A stretch of 64,000 nucleotides of DNA from Grammothele lineata. Lineage: Eukaryota; Basidiomycota; Agaricomycetes; Polyporales; Polyporaceae. Below are positions 18,858-45,443 of the stretch, piece after piece. The notes beneath the pieces were generated by a model. It was given only the letters and a program-made list of their open reading frames with translations. It ran no database searches and was not told the origin of the DNA. The position numbers were made by a program, and so were the translations under genes. Numbering within the stretch: position 1 is the first letter of the stretch; every line of letters begins with the position of its first letter. The DNA is taken from NCBI GenBank assembly GCA_002150815.3, contig NDFF03000002.1, positions 62,001 through 126,000 of the forward strand, written 5' to 3'.

Positions 18858-20626
18858 ATGGCGGATCCAGCCTACATTTCGTCGCTGATAGTGGATCTCA
18901 ATGGCCAGTAAGTCTCCTTGTTGCTGCGATCATGTGCCGCCCATCCCCAAAATTTCGCTGATCCGTTGTTTGTTTCAAGACTTCCGATTGCGTATTCAGA
19001 CATTGCAATGGCTGGCAAGTGATCGGGAGTGTGTCTCATTAGCGCTCTGTTGACCTGAGCTCTACGCCTAGCGCTCGTGATTCACGAGCATTTAATCACG
19101 TTTGACATCGAAGTGAAGTACTTCTGGTCGACGAAGATCTCCGGAGCAGTTATCATCTTCTTTGCCAATCGGTACCTCAATCTTCTCGCTAACAGCGCTT
19201 TCGTAATCGTCCAAGCCCTCCTTTCACCTGGTGCCAAGGTTCGTCGTTCTCCGAACCAGTGTATCACTGCTGCTCACTGTTTCATCGTAGGGGTAAGTAC
19301 TATCTAGCATGATACGGGCATATATTCACATCAAATGTTGATATCTCAGTCTTCTCAATTTGACGCACGCGCAGAACACCGCTGTTCTGTCGATGTTTTT
19401 GATATGGGCGGGTGGGTACTCTCGTGCGACAATCTAGCTTTATAGCCTCGCCGCTGATTATTCTCCTATAGTATTCTCCGCCATGAGAACCTTCGCCATC
19501 AGCCGGAGCAGAGGACTCGCCTTATCGGTTTTGATCCTCTCGCTCGTCTCATTCGGAGTGAATGTGGTAAAATCCAGCGTGTTCTTTGAACCTGTCCTGT
19601 ATATGTAGTGTCTGATGATCAACGTCAGTACGGCGACGCAACTCTCTACATTGTCGACATACCCATCTTGGGGTGGTCGACGGCCTCCGATGTGTCGCCT
19701 ACGGCTGCGAGGCTGTGAGTTCTCTAATTATACCACTATGTGTTGAATACTCACAGGCCGTGTGCAGGTGTGAGTGTCCTATGTCACTATAGAGATGTAC
19801 CGGTGTACCGGGAGTCTTACACCCTCTTGGCAGTCACCGTATTCTCTAGATCGACCTTGATACTTGCAGATGCTATTGTTATCTCCGTGACGTGGTACAA
19901 ACTTCGCATGACGAGCGGCGTGCTCGGTAAGAACACGTTATCGAACATTCTCTTGGTTGATGGTAAGATGTGCAAGCACGTCCATAGTTGGCTTATGATA
20001 CTCATTCTTCACTTGGAACGTTCAGGCTCAATCTACTTCATGTACGTCTCCTTCGCTGATACGTCTATTGCGTCTGATGTTTTTCTTCCTTTGAAAATGA
20101 AGCGTTCTACTGACACTGAACGCGCTGCATCTCACCCTCACACTTCTCTCGGAGGTAGGGGTGCGATATACAGTTCGTTCTAGTCCTCACTGATTTCATT
20201 GCTCAGGCAGGGAGCGTGGGTGATAACTCTAGTATCATCACCACATTCACGGATCCGTACGTCATCGCTTCCCGCTTCCTTTTGCCACTTTCAGCCGATT
20301 AGGAGCCTGACTGCGATATTCCCAACTTTACATGCAGCTTAACGTCCATCCTCATCTCACGGTTCATGCTCGATCTCCAAGCCGCCAACAGGGCGTCTGC
20401 GCACGTGTCCTCAGATGGCGGCGCTGTCGAGTCAATCGTGTTTCAACGGATTGTGGGTTCTCTCGGCGCGTCGATCTCCCCCGAGCAGTTCTCTGGCCCG
20501 TCCCTCCACGAGCTTGGCGATGACTTGAAGGATGACGCTTTCTCTCAAAGGGACGCTGATGATATTCCTGCGCAAGCGACCCTCGGGGCGGCGTGCGATG
20601 AATCGCAGCCCGCGGAAGGATGCTGA
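18858..20626 (+). CDS. DUF6533 family multi-span membrane protein, copy 2
   Basis: Same exon plan as copy 1. First exons: 18858-18907 (MADPAYISSLIVDLNG), 18980 to about 19016 (LPIAYSDIAMA), then the DUF6533 core from about 19073 (LVIHEHLITFDIEVKYFW, then ISGAVIIFFANRYLNLL). The second intron opens with GCAAGT and closes with CTAG, a GC-AG intron. Later blocks: FSAMRTFAISRSRGLALS, YGDATLYIVDIPILGWST, STLILADAIVISVTWYKL, GVLGKNTLSNILLVDG, SSIITTFTDP, and the last exon with LISRFMLDLQAANRA and the tail ESIVFQRIVGSLGAS ending at 20626. Predicted to have seven membrane helices with a cytosolic C-terminal tail. Function unknown; no G-protein-coupling evidence from sequence alone. Confidence 0.75.
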
Positions 20627-21067
20627 GCAGTGCGGTGTCAGGGTAAAAATGACCCATTGTTGTACCACACGTCGAACTTGCATGCAAATTGAGAATAATC
20701 TGCACTGCGACAGCACGTATGCCACCGTCATCATCCCACAGAGCGCCCCCTGGCCCAGGGCCGCAAATCGGCGCCGTCGGAGACGTATCGACCACGACTA
20801 TACGACCTGGCGGGCCTCCGCGCTCCGGTCCTGAGACCTTGGCACTAGCGGCCTGCCTGTCAACCTTCTCTGGGCGTTCTGGCAGGTTGGCAGTGAACGC
20901 CAACCTGACGCCGCGCGGTCCTTTCGCTATCCCGAGTCTCGAAACCTGCAGGGCTATGAAGACAGTTTCAACTTTCTAGGCTATGTCTTTCCCCATAACG
21001 TTCTCCCCCGCGACCTCTCCTTTCTGTCCTCTGATAATAGTCTGACGATCTTGCTCATGTCCCTTTA
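20627..21067. other. intergenic, no gene supported
   Basis: Spacer between the complete copy 2 gene and the stray last exon downstream. No coding signal seen. Confidence 0.4.
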
Positions 21068-21225
21068 GCATCACTTCCGTGCTCATGTCGCGCTTCTTGC
21101 TCGATCTCCAAGCAGCCAACGGGGCGTCTGTGCACATGTCTTCCGAGGGTGGGGATATGGAATCGATCGTATTCCAAAGGGTTGTGGGCTCCCTCAGCAC
21201 GTCCATCCACCGGGGAATGTTCCCG
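21068..21225 (+). pseudogene. isolated last exon of a DUF6533 gene
   Basis: Encodes TSVLMSRFLLDLQAANGA, then MSSEGGDMESIVFQRVVGSL, which is the terminal exon of this family, closest in wording to copy 2, 730 nt upstream. An acceptor-like TAG precedes it, but no matching upstream exons are present between 20627 and 21067. The family motif is altered (SLSTS instead of SLGAS) and the reading frame continues into unrelated sequence. It may be a duplicated gene remnant, or an alternative last exon of copy 2; RNA data would decide. Confidence 0.6.
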
Positions 21226-23201: not shown

Positions 23202-23594
23202 TGGCGTCCCAAGACGAAGTAGCTGCGCTTATTGCTGCCTTTGACAGCTTGTGAGTACCCTGTTCAGACACCCATTGAAGTGCCACTTACCGAGTTGTTA
23301 GGAATGTCGCGGAGTACTTCGAGATTGCAACAATCGGCATGTACCGGGTTCGATCACGCTCCGAGTTGTGCTGACCCATGCCGCAGCATTCGTTCTCTAC
23401 GAGTACTTGATCACGATCTCCGAAGAAATCGGGCTATTCTGGAGGAAGAAGTTCACCGGGGCCGTTGCCCTTTTCATGGCCAACCGTTATCTCACATTAG
23501 CCTACTTCTTTTACGACATCATCAGCTTGACTGTTCCGATGTACAGCGGAAAAGTGAGTCCTTCACCCCACCCTGTAGGGCTATTACATGATAC
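23202..23594 (+). pseudogene. DUF6533 gene copy 3, 5' part, cut by the KDZ transposon
   Basis: Start MASQDEVAALIAAF at 23202, second exon VAEYFEIAT after a GT-AG intron, then a GC-AG intron (donor GCATGT) and the DUF6533 core FVLYEYLITISEEIGLFW with FTGAVALFMANRYLTLAYF, ending SGK before a GTGAGT donor at about 23554. The transposon begins about 41 nt inside this intron. The remaining exons lie 14.6 kb away at 38207-39689. The insertion is therefore intronic, and splicing across 14.6 kb is theoretically possible but unlikely to be efficient. All visible exons are open, which fits a recent disruption. Confidence 0.8.
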
Positions 23595-23975
23595 TACAGG
23601 AAATACCGCGCAGCGCGGTACAGTGTGCCCAGGAAATCCTGGGCCCTAACTCTCCTGCAGCCAACACGTCGGCCACTGACATGTCATTTACAGGAAATCT
23701 TGCTGCACTACTTCTAGCACCAGACACGTCGACCTCGGGCTCGTCCGTACTCGCTCGCCGCCGTCCCGACCCTCGCCGCGCTCCCCGCGATCCCCGGCAC
23801 ATCCCGCCCGCGATACCGCCCGCCGTCCCGCCCGCGCTCCCGCTCGCCGTCCCGCCCGCGATCCCGCCCGCCGTCCCGCCCGCGCTCCCGCCCGCCGCCG
23901 TCGCGCTCGTCGTCCCGTTCGCGGTCCCGCCCATCGTCCCGCTCGTCACGGTTGCGGTTACGCTTCTGTTCGTCG
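23595..23975 (+). repeat. left terminal inverted repeat (381 bp)
   Basis: Starts TACAGGAAATACCGCGC and matches the reverse complement of 37826-38206 over its whole length by eye. The tip holds two near-perfect palindromes: 23604-23620 (TACCGCGC-A-GCGCGGTA) and 23628-23643 (CCCAGGAAATCCTGGG). AGGAAAT occurs at 23598, 23631 and 23692. The inner part (about 23755-23935) is a CpG-dense run of CCCGCCCG-type subrepeats. Confidence 0.93.
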
Positions 23976-24268
23976 TCGCGAATCGCGTCTGCGCTACTCT
24001 TCGTTGCGGTTGTGCTCGCCGCGTTCATTGCGTCCGGGCGGTCGCGGTTGCGGTCGCGGGCTGCCGTCGGGCGCGCTCCTTGGCGCGGTCGCAGTCGCGT
24101 CGGGTGCCCTCGCCATCGCGTCTGGGACAGCACTCGTGTGGACTGATGCCGGGTCATATGCGGCGTTCGCCGTCGCTGTGCAAGTCGATACTAGGGTCGT
24201 CAGTGAAGATGCCAGGGGGTAGCTGAGGCGCGCTCATGCCTGAGAGCTGCTAGTGCTGAGCGTGAATG

Positions 24269-25144
24269 GACACGGGGTTGTTGCCAGCGACGTTGAGAGC
24301 GTGCGCTGGGAACGTCGAGGTCGTCCGAGTCCGAGTCGTTGTAGAAGGGACATGGGGTTGTTGCCAGCGACGTTGAGAGCGCGCGCTGGGAACGCCGAGC
24401 GAGTCCGAGTCCGAGTCGTTGTAGAAGGGACATGGGGTTGTTGCCAGCGCGGCCAGCGACGTTGAGAGCGCGCGCTGGGAATGTCGAGATCGTCCAAGTC
24501 CGAGTCGTTGTAGAAGGGACATGGGGTTGTTGCCAGCGCGGCCAGCGACGTTGAGAGCGCGCGCTGGGAACGCCGAGGTCGTCCGAGTCCGAGTCGTTGT
24601 AGAAGGGACATGGGGTTGTTGCCAGCGACGTTGAGAGCGCGCGCTGGGAACGCCGAGGTCGTCCGAGTCCGAGTCGTTGTAGAAGGGACATGGGGTTGTT
24701 GCCAGCGCGGCCAGCGACGTTGAGAGCGCGCGCTGGGAATGTCGAGATCGTCCAAGTCCGAGTCGTTGTAGAAGGGACATGGGGTTGTTGCCAGCGCGGC
24801 CAGCGACGTTGAGAGCGCGCGCTGGGAACGCCGAGGTCGTCCGAGTCCGAGTCGTTGTAGAAGGGACATGGGGTTGTTGCCAGCGACGTTGAGAGCGCGC
24901 GCTGGGAACGCCGAGGTCGTCCGAGTCCGAGTCGTTGTAGAAGGGACATGGGGTTGTTGCCAGCGCGGCCAGCGACGTTGAGAGCGCGCGCTGGGAATGT
25001 CGAGATCGTCCAAGTCCGAGTCGTTGTAGAAGGGACATGGGGTTGTTGCCAGCGCGGCCAGCGACGTTGAGAGCGCGCGCTGGGAACGCCGAGCGAGTCC
25101 AAGTCCGAGTCGTTGTAGAAGGGACATGGGGTTGTTGCCAGCGA
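24269..25144. repeat. minisatellite, about eleven 80/89-bp units with a 258-bp higher-order period
   Basis: Units start with GACATGGGGTTGTTGCCAGC at about 24269, 24349, 24429, 24518, 24607, 24687, 24776, 24865, 24945, 25034 and 25123 (the last is partial). The 89-bp units have an extra CGGCCAGCG. From 24429 the units recur as triplets (89, 89, 80), the first of each triplet carrying AATGTCGAGATCGTCCAAG. The array is CpG-rich and free of stops in all three minus-strand frames, which produces three long artificial reading frames. It lies just inside the left inverted repeat. Confidence 0.9.
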
Positions 25145-25593
25145 ATCGCCCCGGAGTGTCTCGGCATCTCTCGTCATCATGTCAGTAGCGCCCACGGCGT
25201 CGCCATTGTGAATGTAGACTTACCTCAGAAGCATCACATGCAAGTCTTGATATCGAACCCGCCCAGGAACTTGAAGGGGGTGTGCAGGAAATGGTATTCG
25301 ATTAGAAAGCTGTAATACGAGGCTAATTACAATTCGAGTAACTTAGTATACGGAAGGTAAGCGAATTAAAACGTGACTAAACAAGCGACGCAGTGTGTGT
25401 ACGAAACTTTCAAGTCATAGTTAGCATGCTGCATAAGATATAAACAGCGGGGATTACGGAGGGCGATACGGAGGAGACGGCATAGGAAAGGTTGATTGAA
25501 TATGATATAATGTGCCACGGTGTACTATGCGATCCAAGTCCGGAAACGGCGTGCCGGCGGTAGCCGGTGGGACCGGAGCGAAGCCTGGGCCCA
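25145..25593. other. non-coding spacer inside the transposon
   Basis: AT-richer stretch between the minisatellite and the stop of the minus-strand accessory gene; probably its 3' untranslated region. No gene seen. Confidence 0.4.
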
Positions 25594-28500
25594 TTAACGA
25601 CGTCGGCGCTTCGCCTTCGACGACTCGCCGTCTTTGGACTTTCCGGGGGCAGGCCGTTTCCTGTAAGTAGTTTAGAGAAATAAAGAAAACGGCGCTGAAG
25701 AGAACTTACCCAGCAAAAGTCGCTACGCCACGCGCTTCGACGCATTTCAGGACCTCGACGAACGCGATCCGAGCCTCTTCGACAGCATCGTCCCAACCGC
25801 CGTGGCTGGCCTGGGCGGTTTCCTTCTCGAGTGCCGCCCGCCACCAGGCCAGACCGAGGACGAAAAGCTGGATCCCGTCCTTTCCAGTGACGAAGAGCTT
25901 CGACCAATCGCAAGTCGACAGTCCAACGCCCTCGCGCGAAGACGCGAGAGCGTCGCCGGCCTCCGAGCGATTGGGGAGGTTGGAGCGCCACCAGCTCCAC
26001 CACGCTGCACTAAACTTCGCGATGTTGCCGATCTTCTGATCGCGATATGGCCGCGCACGCTTCATCCATGCCCCTACCTCTTCCGGACGGTTGCTCGTAG
26101 GGTTACGGAGTTTACCATAGGCGGTAAACTTGATCGCGCGCTCGACCGCAGTGAAAGTTTCGACGAGGTGGAACCATGGACGGCCCCAGTCGCGCTCCTC
26201 CTCGCCGAGGAGGTACTGGAACATATGGTGTTGATCCATAGAACAACCCTCGGTGTTGAGGTCGTCGAGTTCATCGGCGGGGTCCGTTCGGGTGGCGGGG
26301 AGAGGCGCTGAAGCCCACGGCGGGGAAGGCGGGTCGTAGGTGATGTCCTGGAATTGAGCCAAGACCGCCGAGATTGACGTTCCCGGGCTTCCACCCGAAG
26401 AGGAAGCGGCGGAGGTCCTGCGACCGGGGTTTGAAGCCTTCTTCGATGCGCGCGACGTCGAGCTCGACGCGATCGTCGCTCCACCTGCTGCGCGTGGCGT
26501 GACCGTCGTCGGGCGCGATGTTTGCGCTGCGTCGCCCGCATGTGAGCTTGCGCGCGTCTTGGTCTGCTTCCGTGCTGGCGCCTTTGAACGAGGAGATGCC
26601 GATGTGTTGCCGGATGAGGGAGGCTGCTGGATATCGACTCGTAAGAGAGACCCGGACAGGACGAAGGGGGAGGGGGGGCCTTGTGGAACGTTGGCACCGA
26701 GGGATATAGGGCTTCCGAGAGGCTCCGTGCCAACGGGAGGCTCCGCAGCTAAGGCCAACCTGTTCGTCGACGACGAAGGCGTACCTCGGGAGGATGGGGT
26801 CTTCGGGGGCATACTCGAGGCAGCCCGAGGCAGCTGGGGAGAAGGAGACGCGGTCGACGGTGTCCGAGTCCCGGAACCCGACGGCGTTGAAGGGTTTCTT
26901 GGTCCCGCAGGCTTCCTCGGGGTCTTCAGCGCGCGTACTGCAGGTGCCAAGTCGGCCGATGCCGAGAAGGTGCTGCGCAAAGGACTCGGAAAGGCTGGTG
27001 CCGAAGGCGTCCGAGCCTTTGACACGAGGCTAACAGAGGGAATAACTGGAGCAGAGGCGGTGCGAGGGCGTGGCTGCTGTGGCACGGCAGGAGCGGGGGT
27101 CTTAGCCAGATTGGAAGTGGTGGGAGCCGGTAAGCTTTCGGAGGGGCCCGACGAGCTTGCAGTCGTAGTTGACGACGTGTCGGTGCCGCTAGGCAGCGCG
27201 GATGAGGCGACACTCGGCCCAACGCTTGATCGCGAGACAGCGGGGGAGGAGGGGGTATCCGGTAGGGAAGGACGAGGGGTTGGTGGAATCGCCTGATTGG
27301 TTTGGATAGAGGTGGACGGCGACGGCGTCCCTCGAGGGTTGTGGTCCTCCAAGCCGTCAACATCTTCCGGCGTGAACACGCGATCTTGGCATTCGCTCTC
27401 CGCTGTCGACATGCCACATACACATCAGTTCTATCCGCAAATTTACGCAGCAGAAAGCGAAACTTACAGAATGAGGCATGGCCAAAACGCACAAGCGATT
27501 TACAAGCCGCTTCGTATCCCACCGGGTCGTGCTCTGGCCATGACTTCGGGGCAAGGCCCTTAGTCTTGCCCGAATTCACGCTATACGTTGCGCGATTGTA
27601 AGCGAAACGAAACTAGTATGCAGTGGAGGAAACACGTACCTCTGTACCTCCATCGTACCCTGATTACTAGGCCCAGTGAGAAAGATGCTGACGTTTCGCC
27701 CGATCCGTTTCCCCACGTAGTCGGTGAACGGACCGAGCCAATGTTCAGCGAGTTCCAGCTCTCTGCGGCACATAGGTAAGCGTAGCGTTGACTGGGCGTA
27801 GCAGACGGACTTACTCGTGATAGCGCTGCGCTGACCGCCCCTCGCCGGTGTCGCCGTCCGATAGACCGGCCTGCCACGAGGCTAGCGCCTCCTCGTAGTC
27901 GGCCTGGAGCTGCTCCTTGAGCTCCCGCTTGAATTCCTCCTTCTCCGCGTCGAAGTGCGCCTTCGTGATGTCGTTCTGGATGACAACACGCTTCGGGCAG
28001 GGCTGGCCCTTCGCGCTCGCGGTCTGGACGAGAGCGGGATACGTGCTGTCGACGAGCGGCTTGATGCGAGATCGATAGTAAAGACGTTGATAGTACTGGA
28101 CGAGGCCCGGGCGGCGAGGCGCCTTTGAATTCTGCTTCCAGAAGCCGTTGAGGATCTTCGTGAGAGCGCTGATCTGGGTCACCTTGAGCGACTTCGTCCC
28201 GTGATACCGGAACCATCGCGCAATTTGCTGGAAAAGAGTCGTCAGCACGCGCAGGTAGACATCACAATGGACGTAGTAAATACCCCGCGCAACTTGATGT
28301 AGACGAGGTTGCGGTTAGCGATCTCTTCGTTGTTGAGTCCCTCGTGGGCAAGGACGGCGTCAAGATCGTCTTCCGAAGCTTCTGGAACTTCTACGCGATC
28401 GTCATCGTGGGCGGCCGCGCGCTCCCAGGTGAACGTCTTGATCCAGTGCTTGGTGACCGCGGAGTAGAAATCGAGGATATCGCCCTTGTCCCTGGCCTCC

Positions 28501-28628
28501 GTCCACTTGGGGATGCGACGGTGAAGGTACTTGTACCGCGCCCCCTTGGCCCATCGGCGTCCGTCGTCGTTGGCAGCGTCGTCGACGGTGGCCTTCTCCT
28601 TGGACTTCGATTTGTTGGACGGCGGCAT
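25594..28628 (-). CDS. accessory gene of the KDZ element, unknown function (917 residues)
   Basis: Six exons: 28284-28628, 27815-28227, 27640-27762, 27468-27580, 25710-27402 and 25594-25660; all phases agree. The first intron has a weak GTATTT donor. The first four exons encode a basic, helix-rich N-terminal region (WFRYHGTKSLKV, RPGLVQYYQRLYY, then GKTKGLAPKSWPE and YEAACKSLVRFGHA). A 250-residue Ser/Pro/Thr-rich disordered section follows. The C-terminal part has a Trp-rich module (RPWFHLVETFTAVERA, MKRARPY, FSAAWWSWWR, GKDGIQLFVLGLAWWRAAL) that resembles a domain common in Agaricomycete hypothetical proteins; I know no name or function for it. The extreme C-terminus KAKRRRR could be a nuclear localisation signal. 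Divergent from the next gene across a 400-bp shared promoter. Confidence 0.75.
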
Positions 28629-29029
28629 GACGAGAAGCAAAGGCGGAGATGCGCTGAGTAGACGGAGAATGTGGGGGCGTGGGGAGGAGTCGCTGCGGGA
28701 GCCGAGCTAGGAATGGTAAGTAGTAATACGAGTGGCTGTCTTTAGACGCCCGGGAAGTGTCTAACCCCAACCGTGACTAGGCGCGCTCTCATCGGCTATG
28801 CGCACTCGCTCGCTAGTGTCAGGCAGACGTCGTTCTCGAGCCAAACAGAAGGCAACTGCGGTGGGTGGTCCGTGCGTGGAAACTATGGCCTCCGATTTCT
28901 GCCGCTCACCGAACTGTCTATTTAAGATGCGCGCAAACCGCAGTGTAGGGGTGCAGGTCATCTTTGATCTGGACGTCTCATCCCCCCCGCTCTCTTCTCT
29001 CGTGCGCACCACAGTCCACTGTTTTTGCA
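28629..29029. promoter_or_regulatory. bidirectional promoter region inside the transposon
   Basis: Separates two divergent accessory genes. On the plus strand TATTTAAG at 28919-28926 lies 104 nt upstream of the ATG at 29030. No clear TATA was found for the minus-strand gene. Confidence 0.45.
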
Positions 29030-30227
29030 ATGTCTACGCCCTCGTCTGACCATAGTGACGACGAGTACGTATTCACGGGGCGGGAGTCGGCTACCAGCAC
29101 TGCCTCGACTCCTGAGCCATCTCCGTCGCCCGTGTCACCCGTGTATGTACCCCAAGGGGATCACGTTACGTACGATATGGCGGAGAACGCCTACAGATAT
29201 TGTGCGCACAGCATTAACTGTTTCACTTATTTTTTTTCTGATCTTTCTTGGCAGGCTTGGAGGGTTTCGTGTGCATAGGCCCCATCGGACACCCCGTCTG
29301 CGGGAACGATCGCAAAATCTTTGATCGGCTTCGTCGCGAGTGTCCTACCGACGCTAAACTGGGGTGGTAAGCTGCGTTATGATACTTTTGATTGCATTGC
29401 TCGGCTACTTATGACAAGCGTTCATTATTACCCAGGTTCGAGAAGGCCTGCGAGGAGCGCTTCTTCGATACGAAGCTGTGGGATGAGCGCTGGGCTTCTC
29501 CCAACCCGTCGCTAAAGGATATCCGCTACGTAGTCTATCGCGGACGTCGTGGTCCCATCGTACGCGAGAAGTGGTAGGTGTGCTCTGGGGCTACGTCTTA
29601 CTTCATAGTACTAATGTCATGTTGGGGTTTAGGGAACAGATGGCCGACGACGTCGTAGGCGTGCAGGGGAGCCTCTACGAGATGTGCACGTCGGTGGTGG
29701 AAGCTCGCCTGCGCATGATCCAAGCCTGGACTGTGCCGGGGCTGTTGGCGACCATCCCGTCGACTTCGATCCGCGGCGAGACAATGTCTGATTGGCTCTC
29801 AGCCCTGACTGTGGGGACGTTTCATACGCTCTCCGTTCCGGAAGCGGACAAAACAGCTCCATGGCAGCCCATCCCGCCGTCCATTGTCGACATTCCCGAC
29901 GACATACTCGATGCCACGCCGCCGCTGCGCCGTCAGTGGCGCTGGTACACTCCGGATCGCCCGAGGCCGACCCTCGCATACGAGCCTAACAGCTGGACTC
30001 GGTTGCAGGTGCGTCCTGTCGCCGGCCACACCCGAGCGCTCCCTTTGCCACCTTGGCGTCGTCGTGTGACTACGCGTGCCCTGACCAATTCTTCGCCGTC
30101 GAACTGGGCTTCACAGCGGATGATCCAGCCGCCTTCCTTGTCGGCTGTGGGAGCTTCTGGGTCGGGCGACGTTCACACTGCGGTCAACCGCGGCGTCACT
30201 CCCTGGGTCTATCCGGGCCGTCAGTGA
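29030..30227 (+). CDS. second accessory gene of the KDZ element, unknown function (338 residues)
   Basis: Four exons, 29030-29201, 29255-29366, 29436-29573 and 29633-30227, phases consistent. The start MSTPSSDHSDDEYVF is acidic and Ser-rich. The middle contains a possible small cysteine-containing module (YCLEGFVCIGPIGHPVCGND, then RRECPTDAKLGW) and a charged helical stretch (ACEERFFDTKLWDERW). The C-terminal third is Pro/Arg-rich and low in complexity. I do not recognise the family. Its place between TIRs beside the transposase and TET/JBP genes suggests it moves with the element; comparison with other KDZ copies would show whether it is a constant passenger. Confidence 0.72.
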
Positions 30228-30635
30228 GTGTCCAGGGATAAGTGCATGTAATAGTCATTAATGTATATGTTTTAGTGGTACTTGGCCGAAGGCACGCTCG
30301 CTCATGGCCGAGGAGCGAGTGTTTCCGTCGTTCGGTGCTGCACTGGATTCGTTTGGCGAGGCGATCCACAGTGGGCAGGTTTTTAGTCCACGGGAAGCAG
30401 GTTTTTAGCCCCGTTAACATGATGTATACGTGTTTTTGTATGATATGGTTAGCAATCATATGTCGTACTATGTCGCCCCAGCTGCTGTATTCGGAGGCAA
30501 AATATAGTGCCAGTATCGCAACCTGTGTGAATGTCTGTACAAAATGCTGCGCTGAATAGTTCATGCCCGAGAGCGAATTCAGACTTGTTCGCGATATAGC
30601 TCAAGCCTCAAGCTTGCAGTGTATTTCTGCTAGGT

Positions 30636-30867
30636 CCGCAGATGCTCCGCTACGCTCGCATTATATACATTGAGTATCTCAGCTAGGCCCGCAGATGCTC
30701 CGCTACGCTCGCATTATATGGCCTGAGTAGTAGTATGGCCCGCGGATGCTCCGCTACGCTCGCATTATATCCACTAGTGTCTCTGCTGAGCCCGCAGATG
30801 CTCCGCTACGCTCGCATTATATGCCCTTAGTATGGCCCGCAGATGCTCCGCTACGCTCGCATTATAT
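30636..30867. repeat. five spaced copies of a 31-bp motif
   Basis: CCGCAGATGCTCCGCTACGC followed by TCGCATTATAT occurs at 30636, 30689, 30740, 30792 and 30837 (one copy has CGG for CAG). The spacing is 53, 51, 52 and 45 bp, with unrelated spacers. It lies in the 1.4-kb non-coding gap between the second accessory gene and the TET/JBP gene. Regular spacing suggests a protein-binding array; nothing identifies the binder. Confidence 0.85.
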
Positions 30868-31662
30868 ACAGTAATACTCTTACAGGGCGAGTGCAAGGGG
30901 CCAGCAATAAGGCGCGGCACAGACACCGACTCTCAGCCACGCGCCTGAGTGGTCGCTGAACCAGTGGGTATGGGACGGCTGGACAGCGAGTTGCCGCGAC
31001 AGCCGCGGCCTGATGATGTCCGACTCCGAGTCGACGCGTCTCGCATAGGGACCTGTGGGATGCCCGGCCCAGCGAACGAGCTCGCCTCATGGATATAGAA
31101 TTGACTAAATGTTAGCTAGAGAGCAGGCACAAAGCGCGGCGCATGGATATCTAAAGGTACGTACGCATTCAAGTAAAGTTACTGACTCCGGGATTCGGAC
31201 TTACGGCCTCACAGCAGCCTGAGTGAGCGGTGCGCGGCCCGACTCTAACGGGGCGCTTAATGCGCGGCGACCAAACAAGGCCTATTTGGCTACCTTGTTG
31301 AAAGTCACGAGCGGCCGTCTCGCCTGTTTAAAGTATCAGGGGAGGCGCGCTCAGCCACCCGCCCTTCCCCCTTACTTCGCGTCTTTAGTCCCCCATCCCT
31401 GCGTCTTCGCTCGCTCTTCTCTACGTTCTCGCCATCTTCTGAGCGTGTTTCAGGTCAGTCCTCTCCTCGCGCTGCGCCTTCCGTGGAGCGCGCTTCCACT
31501 TCGTTCTCGCTGCTGGACGGGCCACCCCAGGCCTGATAAGTGGGAGGACGCTGTGGCGCGCTGCTATTACGCCTGGCGCGGCGCACGTCGTCACCTGCGT
31601 TGCTATGGATGGCTGAAGCACCCTCTCCCTTTCAGGTTATCTTTGGGCCGTGTTGCGCAAGG
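30868..31662. other. upstream region of the TET/JBP gene
   Basis: Non-coding as far as I can judge, but upstream exons of the TET/JBP gene cannot be excluded: pyrimidine tracts ending in CAG at about 31451 and 31635 look like acceptor sites, so the transcript may begin further upstream with untranslated exons. Confidence 0.4.
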
Positions 31663-33439
31663 ATGTCTTCACCGGTTCGTCCCCTCTTTCCTCGCGCGCT
31701 CTGCCCGCCTCGCTGCTCGCTGATGGGCACATTCTATCTTCTCAGGCGTGCCCAGCTCGCATCGACTCGCCCTATCACGCCATCGTGGTCAACATCGACG
31801 CGTTATCCTTGGTTCGCGACGCGCTGCAAGATCCAAACCGGGGGTCGGAGGATGTCGCACTGGAGCCCCTCTTATCCGCTGCGACAGGTACGCCCTCGGC
31901 TTCTTTTCCAGCGCCGATTCCCCTCGAAGACTGGTTCGATGGGCCCCTCTCCCCACTTCCGGCTCGCTATCTGTCCCCCGATCTCTCGCCGTCGCTTTCC
32001 CCGCTCTCCCTCGAAGATCCTCCGTCCTTCGACGGCTCCTCCCCTGGGCCATCAACAGCGCCACACCCCTCGGATGACGCAGACCATCCCTCCCCGGTCG
32101 TCCTGCTGCCTGCCGCTCCCGGGCCTTCGGGCCAGCGTCCCAAGAACCGGGAACAGCGGCGAAAGAAGGAGGACAAGTCAGCGAAGAGAGCGGGGAAGAG
32201 GCGAAAGGAGAAGGAGTCACGGTATGGCGGAAAACCGAGGTCTTCGGCATTCAAGAGCCTGTCGGCTGTCAGCGTCATCAAGACCGACCACTCCGCGCGA
32301 GGGCTTCCAGTCGCCAAAGGGGGCTTCATTGGGAGGCGGCAGCGAGGGCTGACGGCGGAGACCTGGACGTTGGACCGAGTTCGTAAGGAGGGCATTCCCG
32401 TCTACGAGTGGGATGGCAGGTACGTTCCTGTCTGTTCCACCGCCCTACGCCATCCTCATGTGCACAGGTCTATCATGGTGCTTGTGGACGTCGATGGCCG
32501 CATCATAGCTCTCTTCGCCGGCCGTCCCCTTGGGAAAGATTTCGACGCGGTCATTGGAGAGATCAGCCGCCTTCTTGAGAGGGCGCGGCAGAGATGCCGT
32601 TTTACTCCGGCCCAGTTGGACCATAAGCGGGGGCGCCATGCGGCGTTGGCGAAGGGCGTTACTCATGGCACGGGTACACAGGTGCGTGGCATTCGCTTGG
32701 TGTGGCGAGTCCTCACGAACTGCTGTGTAGCGACCAGGAGTCATCCACAACACTCGCCGGAACGCGGCCGTCCTCGAGGAGCTATGCGGGGAGCCTTCTA
32801 TCCAGCGTGTAGCTGCGTATGGAAGTAGTGAGTTGTATTCGTGGGTCGCGTTTTGTGCTATACTTACGTGGTGTAGGTTTGCTTGCGTCTTTCGCTCCCC
32901 GTGTCTTCGGACAGATGCGGACAAAGATGATGCAGGTTTTTGAGCATCACCGGTTCCCCTTGAACTTCGCGCGCAGCATCTACCCCGCCGTTACGTTCAA
33001 CTTCGGCCCCGTCACTGTATGTCATCCCCACGTCGATGCTGCGAACGACCCGGTCAACTGGTGCCATATCACCGCGTTCGGCCGATTCGACTCGAAGAAG
33101 GGAGGCCATATCCTCCTCCTGAAGCCCCGCATGGCAGTTGAGTTCCCTCCGGGAGCTAACGTCATGATCCCGTCCTCTGTCGTACCGCACGCAAATGTGG
33201 CGATCCAGCCGGGAGAAACACGTCAATCGATGACTCAGTACTGTGCGGGTGGCCTGTTGCGATGGGCCGAATGCGGCTTCCAGACCCTCAAAGACTTCTC
33301 CACGAAGGATCCCGTCGGCTGCGCGGAGTTTGAAGCGCGTCTTCCTGCGAGAACTTTAGAACGCGTAGGTCTGTTCTCGATGTTGGATGGTCTGGAGCAG
33401 GACCGTGCTGCGTTCAGCCGAGGGGAGTTCGACGGTTGA
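31663..33439 (+). CDS. TET/JBP family 2-oxoglutarate/Fe(II) dioxygenase carried by the transposon
   Basis: Family members oxidise 5-methylcytosine (TET) or thymine (JBP) in DNA. Exons 31663-31674, 31746-32419, 32468-32681, 32731-32827 and 32877-33439, phases consistent, give 519 residues. The N-terminal 200 residues are Ser/Pro-rich, followed by a basic stretch (EQRRKKEDKSAKRAGKRRK) that may bind DNA or direct nuclear import. The catalytic domain starts with MVLVDVDGRIIALFAGRP. The double-stranded beta-helix core follows: FNFGPVTVCHPHVDAANDP (iron ligands H384 and D386), GGHILLLKPRMAVEFPPG, VVPHANVAIQPGETRQS (iron ligand H437 and 2-oxoglutarate Arg 448), and TQYCAGGLLRWAECG. All ligands expected of the family are present. 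The first 12-nt exon (MSSP) is the least certain part; the true start could lie elsewhere upstream. Confidence 0.85.
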
Positions 33440-33601
33440 GTCACCGTTTGTCCGCATGGGGGCTGCTGTAGTAGTAAAGGTGCGTGTATTGTCCGCGTTG
33501 TGGGGCTTCGTTAACGTCGTCTCTGCGTAATAGATCCCATGTATGTCTGCCGATAACAGGCAATGATACACGCGGCATCCACTAGCCGGGATGCATCTCC
33601 G

Positions 33602-33608
33602 TATAAAG
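33602..33608 (+). promoter_or_regulatory. TATA box of the KDZ transposase gene
   Basis: TATAAAG lies 42 nt before the transposase ATG at 33644 and 163 nt after the TET/JBP stop, so the two genes are very tightly spaced but have separate promoters. Confidence 0.6.
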
Positions 33609-33643
33609 GTCAAGGCTCTGGTGCCTTCGCTGTCTAACCCAAT

Positions 33644-36600
33644 ATGTATGCCCGCAGTGAAAAACAAGCTAAAGGTAAACGCAAGGCCGCTCAGTCAGGT
33701 TTCTACAAGCTGCGAAATGCTGCCCGTGATATGACGCTATCAGAAAGCGGTCGACGCCGTGTGGCGACGACCCTTATGGTCGATCGGGATGGTGTGGACG
33801 TTCCTGACGATGTTGCTGACGCAGCGGGCTCTACGCCTGCCGCCTACGAGCATGTTCCTCCCGTCGACATGCACGACCCGGCTTTCAACAGCTCTAGGGC
33901 CCCAGAAGCGGTGGATGGCCTCAGCGGCATTGCTGTTGTAGCGACGGAGAAGGCCAAGCGGTACGCCAGTTCGGTAGGTCCGTACGCTTAGTACATGTGT
34001 GTATCGCTCATCCGGGCCCATCTAGGATGAACCGTTGAAGGTCTGGATGGCTTACCGCGACGAGTACCTCGACGAGTGCCTTCGCCTAGAGGGACGTGGC
34101 CGCCATGCCCGTTCTACCACGTGTCCCTTGTGCCAGACGCGCGTGCCGTGCTTTCGCTGTCAAGACTGTCTAGGCGGCGACTTACTTTGTCGAGAATGCA
34201 CGCTGGAGCAACACCAGCGGCAGCCACTGCACCGCATAGAGGTAGGTGCTCACTCATGCAGTTTACCACGGGCTGATGTCTCTCTAGTGCTGGGAAGGCA
34301 CATTCTTTAAACGAGTCTCCTTGCGAGACATTGGTCTCGTTGTGCGTCCATCTCACGGGATAGGGGAGGGATGCATAACGTCTTCGGGGATATCCATCCC
34401 GATGACGGTTCTACACGTCAACGGCATACATGTCGTTGAGGTGCAGTTCTGCTCATGTCGTTCGACACATCGGCGCACGTCTCTGTTACGGATGACGTGG
34501 TGGCCCGCTACTCCGGCCGAGCCGAGGACATGCGCCACGTTTGCTGTTCTCCGGCAGTTCCATCTCCTCAATCTTCAAGGCAAAACGACGGCGTATGACT
34601 TCTACGCTGCGCTCGAGCTCCTGACGGACAACACTGGGTTGGAGAAGCTCCCAGTGAGTACACTTAGTATAGATTCGATGGGTCATTCTCACACCTGGAA
34701 CAGGACCGAGCCCCCGCCTTTGCGCTTATGGTACGGCAGTGGCGCCACATCACCATGGCGAAACGCGCAGGGCGAGGCCACGACGCAACCGGAATATCAG
34801 GAACTGCTAGGGGAGGGTTCGCTGTGGAATGCCGTGCATGTCCCATTCCCGGCGTGAACCTACCACCAGGTTGGGAAGAAGCCGGCGAGGATGACGCGTG
34901 AGTGGCATAGCTCGTGCATCCCAAGCTTCACTAACACCTTAATTTAGCTGGCTTTACCAGCTAATGGTTTCTCAAGACGCAAACTTTCGGCTCAAAAATC
35001 GACTTCGTCCGAACACGCTGAAAGACCCATGGCTCGGCCCCGGTCTTGCCTACTTCGTGGACAACGAGCCGTACGAGGAGCATGTCATGAAGTTTGCCAC
35101 GCAAGAAGACGTCTGTTCTTTTCCTGTCGCCAGTTTACCTGAGTATGCCTGACCCGTGTGCTTTCGCAGGTGCGCACTTGCTCCGGCTTTGCGGCGATCT
35201 TAAACGCTCTTACTCGAAGTTCGAAGGGTCTTCGAGCTACGGGCGTCATCGCAGTTAGCTGTCGCCACGAGTTCTTCATGGCGAACGGCCTCGGGGACAC
35301 GCAGAAGGGAGAACGGTTGGTTCAGTTTCGTCCCAGTGTTAGAAGCCCACTAATAGGTCTGCTTCAGGTGGGCGAACACGGACTACGTCCTTGCTTCCGC
35401 CGTTAAGGGCAAAGGCGTCAAACGCGTGAAGGACTCGTACGACGTGGCATGCGAACATGGGAAGTCGTTCTTCATTCGCGCAGGGGACCTCCCGGACGAC
35501 ATCCGACTGGACCTTCCCAAGGAGGCGTGGGTCTTCGTGGTCCCGAAATTCCACATCAATGCGCACAAGGAATCCTGCCAAGGCACATACTCCCCCAACT
35601 ACACGCTCCACATTGCGCGATGGGATGGCGAAGGCGTCGAGCGGCTCTGGTGGCGACTTTCTGCCTGTGCCCCAAGCACCAAGGAGATGGGGCGCGGTGC
35701 GAGGTGGGAGACGATAGACGACTTCTGCGGTTTCTCCAACTGGAGGAAGACCGTTCAGTTTGGTAAGTACTTTCGCCCATCTGTCTTCCTTCATGTCCCA
35801 ACGATCTCTTCTAGGAGACGATTTGCTTCGCCTTCAGCTGGAAGCTCTGCCCGCTGCAGCCGCACATCGAGAGGACTTCGATAATTTCGACAAGCACCTT
35901 CGTTCCACGCGTCCTCAGGACGTCGCCCGATGGGAGGAGATGGTGAAGAAGTGGGAGGAGGATCGCGTCAATAATCCCAGTCCATTCATCCTCCCGAAGC
36001 AAAGTACGTCGTCTCTGTTTACATGATATCCTATTAACATAGCGCCTGACTATAGGTGTGACACGCGAAGAGGTCCGACTCCGCCTCCTCACTGAGGAGA
36101 ACACGGCGGCGATCAATGGACAGGCTGCATTCCATGAGGAAGGGCCTAGTACCTTCATTGTCGAAGGCCTGGAGATCCGCGCAGCACAGTAAGTCTCCAG
36201 GATAACCCGGGACGCCGTGTCTTTTGCTGATTTTTATACAGAAGGAACCTCTCTATGCAGCGCAAAGAAGCTACCACCGTACTGCAGAAGATCAACGTGC
36301 AAAAGCGCGTATCTAGCCTGCTTCGTCGGATGCAGGCTTTCAATGAACTTCAGACGAAATACATGCCACGGCTCGCATCCCAACCCGCCTTCGCCTCGAG
36401 ACCAGCGCCATCCCTCGAACACGTCGATACCTATCCGATCACCCTACCATCCGATATCCCAGCGTCCGAGCGCGCAAACATCTGCTCTCCCAACCTCATA
36501 GAGATAGAGAATGACCTGCAATACGCGGATGCCTTCGACGCCCTTGACGACTTGCGGCACGCCCTTCGATTGCGGACGGCGTATGTTCGAGACAAGGTCC

Positions 36601-37471
36601 ACAACGTCCGAGGACAGCGAACGGGCACTCGAGCACGGACAATGCAATCCTCCGTGGAGGTATCCGTCTCAAACGCGGCGCAGCGTTATCGCAGCGCACG
36701 TTCTGCAGTGCAGGCCCTCCGAGGACCTGGCGAGTGGGAGGCCGTTCTCAAACCTCTCCTCGACAGCGATATCGTTGGCCTGAACGAACGCGCTCTTACA
36801 CGGGAAGAGGAGGCCGAGGTGGAGTTTGTGCGCAACACGGGCGACGACGTAGACGCAGAAGACGAGGCAACGACCGGTCTACAAGGGGTTCCACTTCAAG
36901 GCGCAGTGTCTGTAGGGGAGGGTCGACGCACCCTATCCTGGATTTGGTATACCAGCGTGGCAGGCGGTGGTGCTGACGACGATGGCAACGACCCGGGGTT
37001 GGGCGACGGTAAGAACCTTCATACCGAGTTTAGTGATTACCCACTAACATATACCTCCCGCCGACAGCACTGCGAACCGAATGGGCCAAGGCGAGAGCAC
37101 GAGCAGCGCGCTGGACAGAGCAAGTCCGCCTGGTCCACGAAGAAATGCGCCGAGTCATCGCCGGCACGAAACACAAGGCGACGGTGTGGAACTCGCGGCG
37201 TTCCCAGCGTCAGAGCAAAGTTTCTCCAACGTCTCCGGTCGACGACGCGCTGGACGAAGGCTTGAAGGCCTACGCTGACGAACATGCCGCCATGGAAGCC
37301 GCAATCGCGGCCGTCTTCGAGGCGCGATGGGCAGCAATCCGTGCCCTAGCAGAGGAAGCTATCAACCCTACAGTGGCCCATGAGCCCGGTGTTCCAGAGG
37401 AGAACATACCTGTCCACGTTCTTCACGTCGACGTGGGCGACGACTACTCCGACGGTGAAGGCGAGGACTGA
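33644..37471 (+). CDS. KDZ transposase with N-terminal CxC2 cysteine cluster
   Basis: Cut-and-paste transposase of the Kyakuja-Dileera-Zisupton superfamily. Eleven exons: 33644-33973, 34026-34241, 34288-34653, 34704-34897, 34948-35110, 35170-35315, 35368-35762, 35815-36003, 36056-36188, 36242-37008, 37068-37471; 1100 residues in one consistent frame. Domain order: basic N-terminus; CxC2 cluster (CPLCQTRVPCFRCQDCLGG, then CRECTLEQH); the family segment LRQFHLLNLQGKTTAYDFY; REWRH-like QWRHITMAKRAGRGHD; RNase-H-like core with candidate catalytic residues D379 (SQDANFRL), D497 (DSYDVACEHG) and E563 (GEGVERLWW); GLGDTQKGER; FVVPKFHINAHKESCQG; STKEMGRGARWETIDD; and a C-terminal coiled-coil region (LRRMQAFNELQTKYM). 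No stop or frameshift in any exon, so it is potentially active. Confidence 0.88.
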
Positions 37472-37825
37472 TCGGTCGAGAGGTACGTCGCCGTTGATAC
37501 CTCCTGCGCTGGGTTCCGCTACAAGAGCGGAGGGGAAGGGCGTCGTGAGTGGCGTGGAGATGGCGGGCACGAAGGTGGAGGTCTGAAGGGCGGATTGGGC
37601 GGGCCGAGGTACGACGGCGAGGAGAGCCACAGACGCGACGGCGAGCACAACCGACGCAACTGCGACGACCGGCACGACCGGCACGACGACGGAGCACGCA
37701 CGCGCGACGGGTTGCATGGGATTGGGATGTTGGTGGGGTTGGCGAGAGGATTGTTGGGGTGGATGGGAGGTTCGATCCTGGAAACCGTCACGACGAGCGC
37801 ATACGACCGACGAGCGCACGCCACC
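37472..37825. other. subterminal non-coding region of the transposon
   Basis: Between the transposase stop and the right inverted repeat. GC-rich with short repeats; no gene seen. Confidence 0.4.
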
Positions 37826-38206
37826 CGACGAACAGAAGCGTAACCGCAACCGTGACGAGCGGGACGATGGGCGGGACCGCGAACGGGACGACGAGCGCGA
37901 CGGCGGCGGGCGGGAGCGCGGGCGGGACGGCGGGCGGGATCGCGGGCGGGACGGCGAGCGGGAGCGCGGGCGGGACGGCGGGCGGTATCGCGGGCGGGAT
38001 GTGCCGGGGATCGCGGGGAGCGCGGCGAGGGTCGGGACGGCGGCGAGCGAGTACGGACGAGCCCGAGGTCGACGTGTCTGGTGCTAGAAGTAGTGCAGCA
38101 AGATTTCCTGTAAATGACATGTCAGTGGCCGACGTGTTGGCTGCAGGAGAGTTAGGGCCCAGGATTTCCTGGGCACACTGTACCGCGCTGCGCGGTATTT
38201 CCTGTA
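37826..38206 (-). repeat. right terminal inverted repeat (381 bp)
   Basis: Reverse complement of 23595-23975; no mismatch found by eye across the length, including the CpG-rich inner part. Identity stops abruptly at 37826, where the left copy continues with unrelated sequence. Confidence 0.93.
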
Positions 38207-39689
38207 TGTGACATGAAATTTCTACAGGGACGGCTCAGTCCTTGCCGTTTTATGACTGCAATGCTCCTTTGCTTATGCCACGCTACGTACACAGAGGCGA
38301 GTGATCCGCTGAACACTAAATCGTCATGTTCTCACGTGTCAATATCGGACAGTGTTCTCGCTTCTGCACGAGCTCAAGACATTCTCCGGATAGGGCAATA
38401 TTTCCTCTGGGCAGGTGCGTTAGTGGTCAACAAAGCGAAAAAGCACGGTATTTAGTTCCCTCCACCAGCGTTCGCCGCCCTTCGAACATTCGCCCTCACT
38501 CGGCACTGGCTGCTGCCATCGTTCATCTTCGTCTTGTCCATGCCCGTCATCGCCGCCAACCTGGTGCCTATTCTCATGGTTTTGCGCGCCGGCATCATAC
38601 TCACGCAACCCAACTATAGTATCAAGTGACTTCTCTTTCGGCAACTTCGGCCCCGCCGTTTGGGTGGGTGCTCGCAAGTGACATTTCCCTGGAAATGAGC
38701 AAAATGTAAGCTGCGTTCTCGCATTGAAGTTCTCGCCATTGATGGTCTCGCTCAGATGTTAGTACCTCCGGCTTTGCGACTTTTCACACGATGATAACGT
38801 GTCATGTCTACTCGTACAGTCACTATCATCTCGCGGGCACCCCTTATCCTCGCAGACCTTCTCGCAGTCTGTGTGATATGGTACAACCTCCTTCGTGACC
38901 GAACGCGAGGCGCGTTCGGTTCTACTTCGCTTACTCAGGTGCTTCTTCGTGATGGTGAGTGTTTAATAGCTTCCTCGTTGAACGGCCATGGCTCATGCAG
39001 TTTGAGCGTAGGGACGATATATTTCGTGTAAGGGCATAAGTGATAAAGCAAGTCCTAGACTGACCCACCCTCTCATCGCCAGTGTTCTGCTCGTGCTGAA
39101 CTGCGTTCACCTTGTCCTCACGCTCCTCTCCGTGAGTCAACATTCCACGGTTTGACGTTTCCATTAGCTCATTATACGAGCATAGATCAACACGCCCAGC
39201 AGCCACGCGAGCGTCGTGACTGCACTCACGGACCCGTAAGGACTGCGCTTTTCTCATAGACACCCTCGTCCTGATTCGTCTGTGTCTTTCCTGTACTACC
39301 CATGCAGGTTGACCTCAGTCATGGTCTCGCGTTTTATGCTCGATCTCCAAGCCGCGAACAAGAAATCAACGGGGATGACTTCCAGCGTCGGTTCGCACGT
39401 CGACTCGGTCGTCTTCCAGCGCGTCTTCGGCTCCCTTGGCGCCTCTCTCACCCCGGACTTGGTATTAGACAGTGGGTCCAGGTCAGGGCGACATAGCGGC
39501 GGAAACCAGGACTTCGGAGAATACGAGGCTGGTTCGGAGGGAAGTACGGCTGTGCGGGATAGCCAGGAGAGGAGCCATAAACACTCGAAGACGAATGAAA
39601 GCGAGCCCGATCTCTCGTCGGCGAGGCGACGCAGCTCAGACGGAGGAGTGGAGTCCGCATCGGAATCTGATTCTGGCTCGATGGTGTAG
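38207..39689 (+). pseudogene. DUF6533 gene copy 3, 3' part, downstream of the transposon
   Basis: Continues the gene begun at 23202. Recognisable exons: IGQYFLWA (about 38390-38414), FAALRTFALTRHWLLPSF with SMPVIAANL (about 38468-38560), VTIISRAPLILADLLAVCVIW then LTQVLLRDG (about 38818-38955), the short TIYFV exon (about 39018-39029), LNCVHLVLTLLS (about 39090-39130), ASVVTALTDP, and the last exon with MVSRFMLDLQAANKK and VDSVVFQRVFGSLGAS, with a longer Ser-rich tail than its paralogs, stop at 39689. Joined to the 5' part the gene would have the full family layout, so it was probably intact before the insertion. The membrane loop around 38590-38760 is hard to read and may have decayed. Confidence 0.72.
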
Positions 39690-40713: not shown

Positions 40714-42470
40714 ATGACATCACGCCTCGACGTCTCTGTGATTATCGAGGAGGTCGGCGGCATGTGAGTGTGAAACTGTATCTGTTAGTGCGTATCTGGA
40801 CTGAGGGTTCGACCCAGTACGATCTACGAGTACTGTCAACTGGCTGGGCAAGGCGAGCACTTCCTCCCCACTTCCTCACGAACCTCCGGTCTTTCTGACT
40901 TCAGCCATTATCCAGTGCTCATTCTGTACGAGTACCTTCTTACACTGAGCGACGAGACGGAGTTGTTCTGGGATGGGAAGATCACCGGTGCAGCCTTCTT
41001 GTTCCTGGCGAATCGCTATCTCGCTCTAGTCAGCTATCTCTACGAGCTTGTGACCAACGCTGTTTCATATCCCGCGACAAGCGGTCGTGTAAGTTTCGCT
41101 TTCCTCTGCTACTGCTGTATCCTCACGCTATCTTCGCAGATGTGAGGACTCAGTGCTACCCTCATGATTTGTGTAGCTAACGCAACACGTTACGCAGGGT
41201 TCTTGCGATATCTCAAAGTCAATCCGTTATTAGGCTAATGCCGTGTCTCATTTGGGCGTGTACGTACTTTCATCAGTCTGCGCTGTAACGAATCTAATAG
41301 CTTTTCAATCAGCCTTTTCGAGTCTGCGAACATTTGCTATCAGCCGCTACAAGATCGTGTCGATCTTGGTCTTTGTTCTCTCACTGTCATCGTTCGCTGC
41401 CAATATCGTATGTGGGGCCAATGGCGAATAGTGTTCTCGTCTGAACGACTCTCGTCCATTGACAGGTACACTTGCCTACGCTCCACGTCATTTACGTGGA
41501 ATTCTTCAATTCCTGGTCCGTTTCCGTGGGAGAAACTGTACAACAAGGAAAATGGTATGTATGACCGTCGCTCAACTGAGTCTTGCTCCTAAAAATCTGA
41601 TTCTTGATTTAAGGGGTTAGTAGATCCTCCTCTCGCCCATCTGGAATGTGGCGGTACTTACGTTCAGCGCCGCCGGTACTAGTTTCCATCGGATCACGGG
41701 TACCCCCGATGTTGGCGGACGCAATTGTAGCATTCGTCACCTGGTTCAAGCTCTCGAGGGACCATGCCGGACGCGTGCTTGGAAAGACGACGCTGTCTGA
41801 TGTTCTAGTTCGCGATGGTACGTGCCCATTATCCCTCCTGGGACCTCTCGTCTAACCTTTTCTGCTCCACTAAGGCACAATCTACTTCCTGTCCGTCCTC
41901 TCATCTCGCTGTCTCACGTATCGCTGACGTCATCTCTAGGACACTGTTTATACTGAACACGCTGCATCTCGCGCTGACGTTGCTCTCCGTACGCCCTTCA
42001 TACTTCTCCCGCTTGACTAGGCTCACCATGCCGAGCAGATCGACCAACCCGGAACGAACTCGAGCGTCGTCACCGCGTTCACCGATCCGTACGCACGCTC
42101 CCGTTCTGTTACTTCTAGTACATCGATCACTCACGTTGACATCGAATGACATGGCAGGCTAACGACGATCCTCGTTTCGCGCTTCATGCTCAACCTCCAG
42201 TCTGCGAACCGGCAGTCTGCACAGATGGCGTCGACTGCGTTCGACGATATCTCGCCTTTTGAGTCCGTCGTCTTCCAGCGCGTGGTTGGCTCGCTCGGCG
42301 CGCCAGTGCTCGCCCATGGCAGTCCAGAATCCGGTGAAGACACTGATAGCTGTGCTGTCGCTAGTGCCTCTGCGGACGTAGAGAGTAAGCCCTACTATCT
42401 CCGAGGCCCTTCTAACGAGATAACGAACCGCTCAGTGATCAAAAATGCAAGCGATGATAAAATACCATAA
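40714..42470 (+). CDS. DUF6533 family multi-span membrane protein, copy 4
   Basis: Start MTSRLDVSVIIEEVGG, then the DUF6533 core LILYEYLLTLSDETELFW with ITGAAFLFLANRYLALVSYL (about 40920-41090), FSSLRTFAISRYKIVSIL (about 41318-41406), LPTLHVIYVEFFNSWS, PPMLADAIVAFVTWFKLS with VLGKTTLSDVLVRDG (about 41700-41818), TIYFL, LFILNTLHLALTLLS, NSSVVTAFTDP, and the last exon LVSRFMLNLQSANRQ with ESVVFQRVVGSLGAP, stop at 42470. The intron before the core probably starts with GCAAGG (GC-AG), matching copies 2 and 3. Not all central exon borders were fixed, and the segment around 41140-41300 is the least clear. No internal stop in recognised blocks. Confidence 0.7.
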
Positions 42471-43483: not shown

Positions 43484-43963
43484 TGACATCCCAAGCAGTT
43501 GACCCAGACATCCAATCAGTAATTGTTGCCGCTGAGAGCACCATGTGAGTCCTTCCAGCCCGCGAGATTGCCTTATCTGACTAGTAATCCCTCTCGTGCT
43601 ATTATTGTATCTCACAGTTCTCTGATGAATTTCTGCCAAGTCTCGGTGTCAGGCAAGCCTTTGATCACCCGCGCATCGCAAGTCTGAGGTCTCTTCTTAT
43701 TTTTTTCTCTCTAGCGTTGGTGGTCTATGAGTACTTAATCACATTCAATAAAGAATTAGAGTGTTTCTGGTCGAAGAAAGTCACTGGAGCAGTTGTGCTG
43801 TTCTTTGCCAATAGATACCTCAATCTGGTCTCGTACCCCATTCTTCTACCTATCGGGGACTTCATTCCTTTTATTGGCGAGCAGGTATGACGCTCTCCGA
43901 TGTCTAAACAGTTTATGTCTTCTCACTTATTTTATGCAGAGGTTGGTTCAATCACGTCTATGC
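43484..43963 (+). pseudogene. DUF6533 gene copy 5, truncated at the retrotransposon
   Basis: Start MTSQAVDPDIQSVIV at 43484 and the DUF6533 core LVVYEYLITFNKELECFW with VTGAVVLFFANRYLNLVSY, ending GEQ before a GTATGA donor at about 43887. The LTR element starts at 43964. None of the later family exons is found downstream of the element (51466 onward), so the gene is a 5' fragment, either truncated before the insertion or by a rearrangement at it. Confidence 0.72.
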
Positions 43964-44545: not shown

Positions 44546-44547
44546 TT

Positions 44548-44559
44548 AGAACAAGTCTG
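44548..44559 (+). other. putative primer-binding site, self-priming type
   Basis: AGAACAAGTCTG, two bases after the LTR, is perfectly complementary over 12 nt to CAGACTTGTTCT at 44330-44341 in the LTR. No TGG typical of tRNA-primed sites is present. This fits self-priming by the 5' end of the element RNA, as known for Tf1 of fission yeast. Confidence 0.7.
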
Positions 44560-45368: not shown

Positions 45369-45443
45369 TTTTTAGTTTTGGGAATAGTTTTTGTATCAGC
45401 GGCACCAGTTTTCGAATAGACAACACCACTCTCCTCCCCCATC

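Follow-up and report, generated by a model that had tools for sequence, protein, structure and literature searches.

KDZ transposons that carry TET genes (TET+ KDZ) have already been published, and in the accessible text of that description (PMC12730594) the TET+ Kyakuja elements of Agaricomycetes, with Polyporales among their hosts, combine a KDZ transposase and an adjoining TET-fold oxygenase with a 7-bp target-site duplication and a 5' CA. According to the same portions of PMC12730594, two Kyakuja families of Laccaria have CA..TG ends and no terminal inverted repeats (TIRs), Zisupton elements have a KDZ transposase, TIRs and 8-bp duplications, and enzymes of the AG type have Gly or Ser at position +5 and Asp at position +11 from the first iron ligand. 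CxC2 precedes the intact KDZ elements of Pleurotus, as stated in the part of PMC7641404 consulted. The locus compared here lies in a window of 64,000 nucleotides from Grammothele lineata (contig NDFF03000002.1, positions 62,001 to 126,000), which corresponds to C2:62001-126000 in the searched assembly of 41.8 Mb and 252 contigs (GCA_002150815.3; other contigs are named likewise, C10 and so on). It is read, with somewhat better than even confidence for the explanation as a whole, as a structurally complete and potentially autonomous KDZ transposon with a TET-type oxygenase that likely acts on 5-methylcytosine (5mC). The original prediction of a complete, recent KDZ transposon carrying a TET/JBP oxygenase was partly confirmed as an observation and partly supported in its interpretation, and its statement that such elements are known from basidiomycetes agrees with the published TET+ KDZ.

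Compared by the published descriptions of the families, the element is nearest to Kyakuja, with which it shares the transposase and adjoining oxygenase, the 7-bp duplication, the 5' CA and a Polyporales host. It has a complete KDZ domain and, at defined ends, a duplication within the 7-8 bp of the superfamily, in contrast to the 8 bp of Zisupton. Unlike the two Laccaria families it has CA..TC ends and long inverted repeats: the right tip ends in GGCTC at all ten exact sites in the genome, and inverted repeats are present here (381/381 identical) and, in weak form, in the relatives on C10 and C121 (74-76% over about 106 columns). The oxygenase has Asn and Cys at the two positions occupied by Gly/Ser and Asp in the AG-type enzymes.

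The termini of the element were placed at 23564 and 38236 (14,673 bp, forward strand) because its tips are common to relatives in the same genome and a 7-bp duplication abuts them. The original prediction had taken the 381-bp repeats as the ends (23595..38206), but the true ends lie 31 bp (left) and 30 bp (right) beyond these. The duplication AGTCCTT, which the original prediction had not mentioned, is identical in 7/7 positions at 23557..23563 and 38237..38243, both on the forward strand. The left tip, which begins CACCCCACCCTGTAG (23564..23594, forward), and the right tip, which finishes in CTACAGGGACGGCTC (38207..38236, forward), form an imperfect repeat. ACATGA had also been considered as the target duplication and was dropped after the relatives revealed the true tips.

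The relative on C10 matches the element briefly just beyond the right repeat, and a pattern search with this outer stretch (at most two mismatches) found 11 genome places, the reversed control five. The exact 15-base right tip CTACAGGGACGGCTC was found at ten places including the element, and with at most one mismatch at 12, against seven in the reversed control. The DNA beyond it varies among the insertions, except that C53 and C219 have near-identical flanks. A left tip was present on the same contig for six of the ten right-tip sites, and the 7-bp flanks of these six two-ended copies are identical in four, match in 6/7 positions in C219 and are unrelated in C74. The four are the present element (AGTCCTT), C10 (CCACCGA), C121 (GGTGGAC) and the 2.6-kb relative on C246, in which the left tip CACCCCACCATGTAG and the right tip CTACAGGGACGGCTC both abut AACCAGA. 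Further 7/7 pairs across contigs, C208 with C151 and C224 with C91, come from a comparison of lists and are weaker evidence. Left and right tips differ by the same asymmetry in the six copies compared. The genome search for other copies that the original prediction had proposed thus found relatives sharing the tips, with the element as the sole copy of its kind.

Four genes are present between the repeats, as originally predicted, in spliced models made from the DNA alone with a home-made predictor and choices by hand. Gene D (33648..37471, forward) encodes the KDZ transposase in 12 exons and 1076 aa, with a CxC2 domain (E 2.2e-36) and a complete KDZ domain (PF18758, positions 1-217 of 217, E 2.2e-52). 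Its model and the modelled part of the oxygenase, gene C, with five exons, are both open, their introns measuring 46-67 bases, and the stops in the transposase cDNA that had been named as contrary evidence are absent from the 1076-aa model. The first intron of gene B and the 5' end of gene C are tentative. Gene A (25706..28628, reverse, 877 aa in the model) and gene B (29030..30227, forward, 336 aa in the model) gave no domain in Pfam searches of their proteins, and a fold prediction for gene A from a two-sequence alignment was not usable (pLDDT 62.6). Both are read as accessory to this lineage. The C10 relative shares a conserved gene B, and the main exon of gene A has six genome matches including itself, all on contigs that also bear this oxygenase family. 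In Polyporus arcularius a contig of 15,791 bases is listed for the homologue of gene A and likewise for one oxygenase homologue, and the two entries probably refer to a single contig. A tandem array of about nine copies of an 89-bp unit (24264..25144) separates gene A from the left repeat.

Gene C (31756..33439 for the modelled part, forward; catalytic exon 32877-33439) encodes a predicted TET-fold Fe(II)/2-oxoglutarate oxygenase. A Pfam search of its open reading frame gave no match up to E 0.1 and sequence searches of the PDB gave none or chance matches, and the TET label therefore rests on a fold search with the model of a homologue that shares 52% identity with the exon of the element. The closest solved folds were CcTet, NgTet1 and TET2, all above CMD1 and FTO by Z. 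The PF20515 profile gave no match and its controls likewise none, which makes that search uninformative. The active site was compared in an alignment of 78 sequences, many of them close relatives, which comprised 58 proteins, the exon in the window and 19 other loci of the same genome (20 of 24 genome matches had a locus). With gaps excluded, the Fe/2-oxoglutarate ligands are kept as H in 69/72, D in 69/72, H in 66/69 and R in 70/70 sequences. The metal motif is HxD and not the HxE of the PE type; position +5 from the first iron ligand is Asn in 69/72 and position +11 Cys in 70/70, and the AG-type pattern is thus not that of this family. Among proteins, the nearest relatives belong to Polyporus, Lentinus, Trametes and Cerioporus, and the species named among the homologue matches are taken to be Agaricomycetes. 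In the databases that were searched, no name was attached to this branch of the TET-like family.

By spacing, the family appears to have the Asn of human TET2 and a Cys in place of Thr1393, an alignment to Asn1387 in which the numbering of the TET2 iron ligand was assumed. In the accessible part of the structural work on CcTet (PMC11040006), TET2 Asn1387 occupies the position of CcTet Gly331, its side chain forms a bond with 5mC and, through a clash, blocks N6-methyladenine (6mA), and CcTet Asp337 (TET2 Thr1393) makes up for the loss of the Asn. CcTet, from Coprinopsis cinerea, is 12-15% identical in structural alignments, and because its Gly331 and Asp337 are replaced by Asn and Cys, its bifunctional 5mC/6mA solution is not predicted for gene C. 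Gene C would most likely oxidise 5mC in DNA. That the protein has a TET fold and another substrate, modifying a different base or adding another group as in CMD1 and JBP, or acting on 6mA or RNA, is considered rather unlikely, as the Asn in 69/72 sequences would bond 5mC and clash with 6mA (PMC11040006, same part) and CMD1 and FTO rank below the three TET enzymes.

The 381-bp inverted repeats (left copy 23595..23975, forward; right copy 37826..38206, reverse) are identical in all 381 positions when aligned base by base, as the original prediction had judged by eye. A genome search with one repeat found both copies and two weak partial matches, and the 26-base repeat end with at most three mismatches was present only here. 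In the relatives the repeats are 74.5% identical over 106 columns in C10, 75.7% over 107 in C121, 76.8% over 531 in C246, 87% over 231 in C74 (best of three blocks) and 95.6% over 339 bp in C219. An assembly artefact, in which a single repeat copy was used twice, would explain the identity and fits the low values of the full-length relatives C10 and C121 and the GC-rich short tandem units in the repeat, which are hard to assemble. This is nevertheless judged improbable, as the tips beyond the repeat differ between the ends and each agrees with the corresponding tip of relatives, the window is without N in a contig of 428 kb, and C219 has 95.6% identity. Most likely the identity would have arisen when sequence was copied locally from one to the other of two pre-existing, imperfect inverted repeats, an event that spared the tips; the outer 30-31 bp match poorly between the ends. 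Repeat identity was consequently rejected as an insertion clock, since it dates the copying event and not the insertion; a recent insertion is plausible, yet not proven by the repeats. Near the right repeat, a 66-bp stretch (37706-37771) matches C238:193776 and C125:25919 with 89% identity, the latter contig also having an oxygenase relative.

The element may alternatively be an immobile relic with a defunct transposase, its open frames reflecting a short time since insertion. Its single copy and the stops in many genomic KDZ matches, some perhaps intronic, agree with this, but the transposase model is complete and open over 1076 aa, the right tip is identical and the left tip similar to those of relatives, and the duplication is 7/7, and a relic is regarded as unlikely. 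Movement in the manner of a DNA transposon finds good support in the anatomy. The ends, the duplication and the insertion site can be read directly from the sequence. In the proposed mechanism the element would have used cut-and-paste to enter the DUF6533 membrane-protein gene in whose intron it lies, with the CxC2-KDZ transposase recognising the conserved asymmetric tips; gene C, with the TET-type fold predicted for the homologue and the active-site residues seen in the element, would most likely oxidise 5mC, and this oxidation may counter methylation of the transposon DNA, the last being the weakest step.

Several observations weigh against the reading as an active, 5mC-oxidising transposon. 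No burst is seen, as the assembly has a single copy of this kind; its other DNA matches are 65-76% identical when longer and 78-95% in pieces of 38-77 bp. The left-tip search with at most one mismatch gave 15 matches (five exact) against 21 in the reversed control, no enrichment, and for this reason left tips were accepted only when supported by flank or subterminal sequence. Of the 23 loci of the oxygenase family, 13 have no KDZ match inside 10 kb. The position at which CcTet Arg393 and TET2 His1904 bond the base O2 (PMC11040006, part consulted) seems, by spacing, to be Ala in the oxygenase, contrary also to a simple likeness to TET2. All 19 KDZ loci tested have CpG observed/expected ratios of 0.95-1.22, including ones without a listed oxygenase on the contig. 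In the accessible part of PMC8889193, moreover, oxidised methylcytosine on transposons is linked with silencing, genes near highly modified transposons are silenced and suppression is suggested.

The original prediction had also proposed that the element could escape silencing by oxidising its own methylcytosine, an idea already put forward for TET+ transposons, whose function the text of PMC12730594, as far as accessible, states as not experimentally validated. The CpG ratio is 1.17-1.32 at the ends of the oxygenase-carrying C2, C10 and C121 elements and 0.41-0.65 (stretches of 328-1400 bases) at those of short (C74, C246) and partly seen (C42, C53, C91, C151, C207, C208, C219, C224) relatives. 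The flanks of the CpG-poor relatives have 0.90-1.23, except C53 and C219 with 0.67-0.74. Like the 19 KDZ loci, the 20 oxygenase-family loci tested show no depletion (0.83-1.20), and some of all these loci have no listed partner. Because the undepleted loci include ones without listed partners, the comparison gives protection no discriminating support, and the CpG pattern was dropped as a sign of it; KDZ and oxygenase loci are equally undepleted, and copy number, age or coding content fit as well. Escape from silencing mediated by the oxygenase is therefore only possible. As a separate observation, the low CpG in short and partly seen relatives hints that C-to-T change has been directed at CpG sites here; in the available text of PMC12730594 hypermutation is reported as not detected in Agaricomycotina.

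The same genome contains a second class of oxygenase genes. The Tet_JBP profile matched 17 other genome places, ten of them above the curated cut-off, and none of the 24 genome matches of the oxygenase family of the element. In four Tet_JBP genes that were read out, position +5 is Gly (two) or Ala (two) and position +11 Asp (all four), which is close to the AG pattern. A KDZ match within 10 kb was found at 4/17 Tet_JBP places, compared with 10/23 loci of the element's oxygenase family. The transposase of the element is about 56-78% identical in the main blocks to KDZ proteins of C10, C68 and C121 and 26-29% to those neighbouring three AG-like genes. Oxygenase relatives 38-45% identical are present on C219, C215, C20, C7, C125 and C6, where no KDZ match is listed; these may have another carrier or be host genes.

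The host gene lies on the forward strand, with exons at 23302..23553 before the insertion (start uncertain) and at 38294..39471 after it (approximate limits). The last base of its left exon is 23553, the sequence continues with GTGAGT, and the element is inserted after GTG, three bases past the splice donor and thus within the intron. Without the element and one duplication this intron measures about 61-63 bases and the reading frame is open. The two flanks are one gene, as originally predicted, since a paralogue (40903-42302) matches the left flank at 23374-23535 and, further along in the same order, seven right-flank blocks between 38246 and 39443; the DUF6533 domain itself (E 8.3e-13) is, however, entirely left of the element. 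The paralogue spans 1,400 bases compared with 1,390 at the host after removal of both the element and one duplication, the block adjacent to the junction being weak (25%). A search of this assembly found no empty allele: the only full match of the right flank was the query site, and two others were weak and partial. An earlier join, spliced from the host donor into the right tip, was superseded by a later model. The right tip (38207-38236) contains TTTCTACAG, a good splice acceptor to which that first model had joined the host donor in frame, and its use might allow removal of the element as an intron. The element sits within a local cluster of DUF6533 genes, with paralogues at 14432-15889, 19071-21207, 40903-42302 and 43693-43836. 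Nearby, at 43964-51465, is a long terminal repeat retrotransposon with reverse transcriptase, RNase H, integrase and chromodomain, its direct repeats of about 580 bp being 94.6% alike.

With its defined ends, duplication and open genes, the element offers a compact unit for testing the function of a transposon-borne TET enzyme. The corrected ends CACCCCACC...CTACAGGGACGGCTC and the 7-bp duplications make relatives findable, including short ones without these genes, and the Asn/Cys pocket gives the sharp prediction of activity on 5mC and none on 6mA, which would set the oxygenase apart from CcTet. It is suggested, tentatively, that Agaricomycete KDZ transposons may bear TET enzymes of two kinds, each with its own specialisation and carried in the same genome by distinct KDZ lineages: the AG type (Gly and Asp; 5mC and 6mA) and the unnamed type with the animal-like Asn pocket (for which activity on 5mC but not on 6mA is predicted). 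If so, one host would face two base-oxidising transposon systems.
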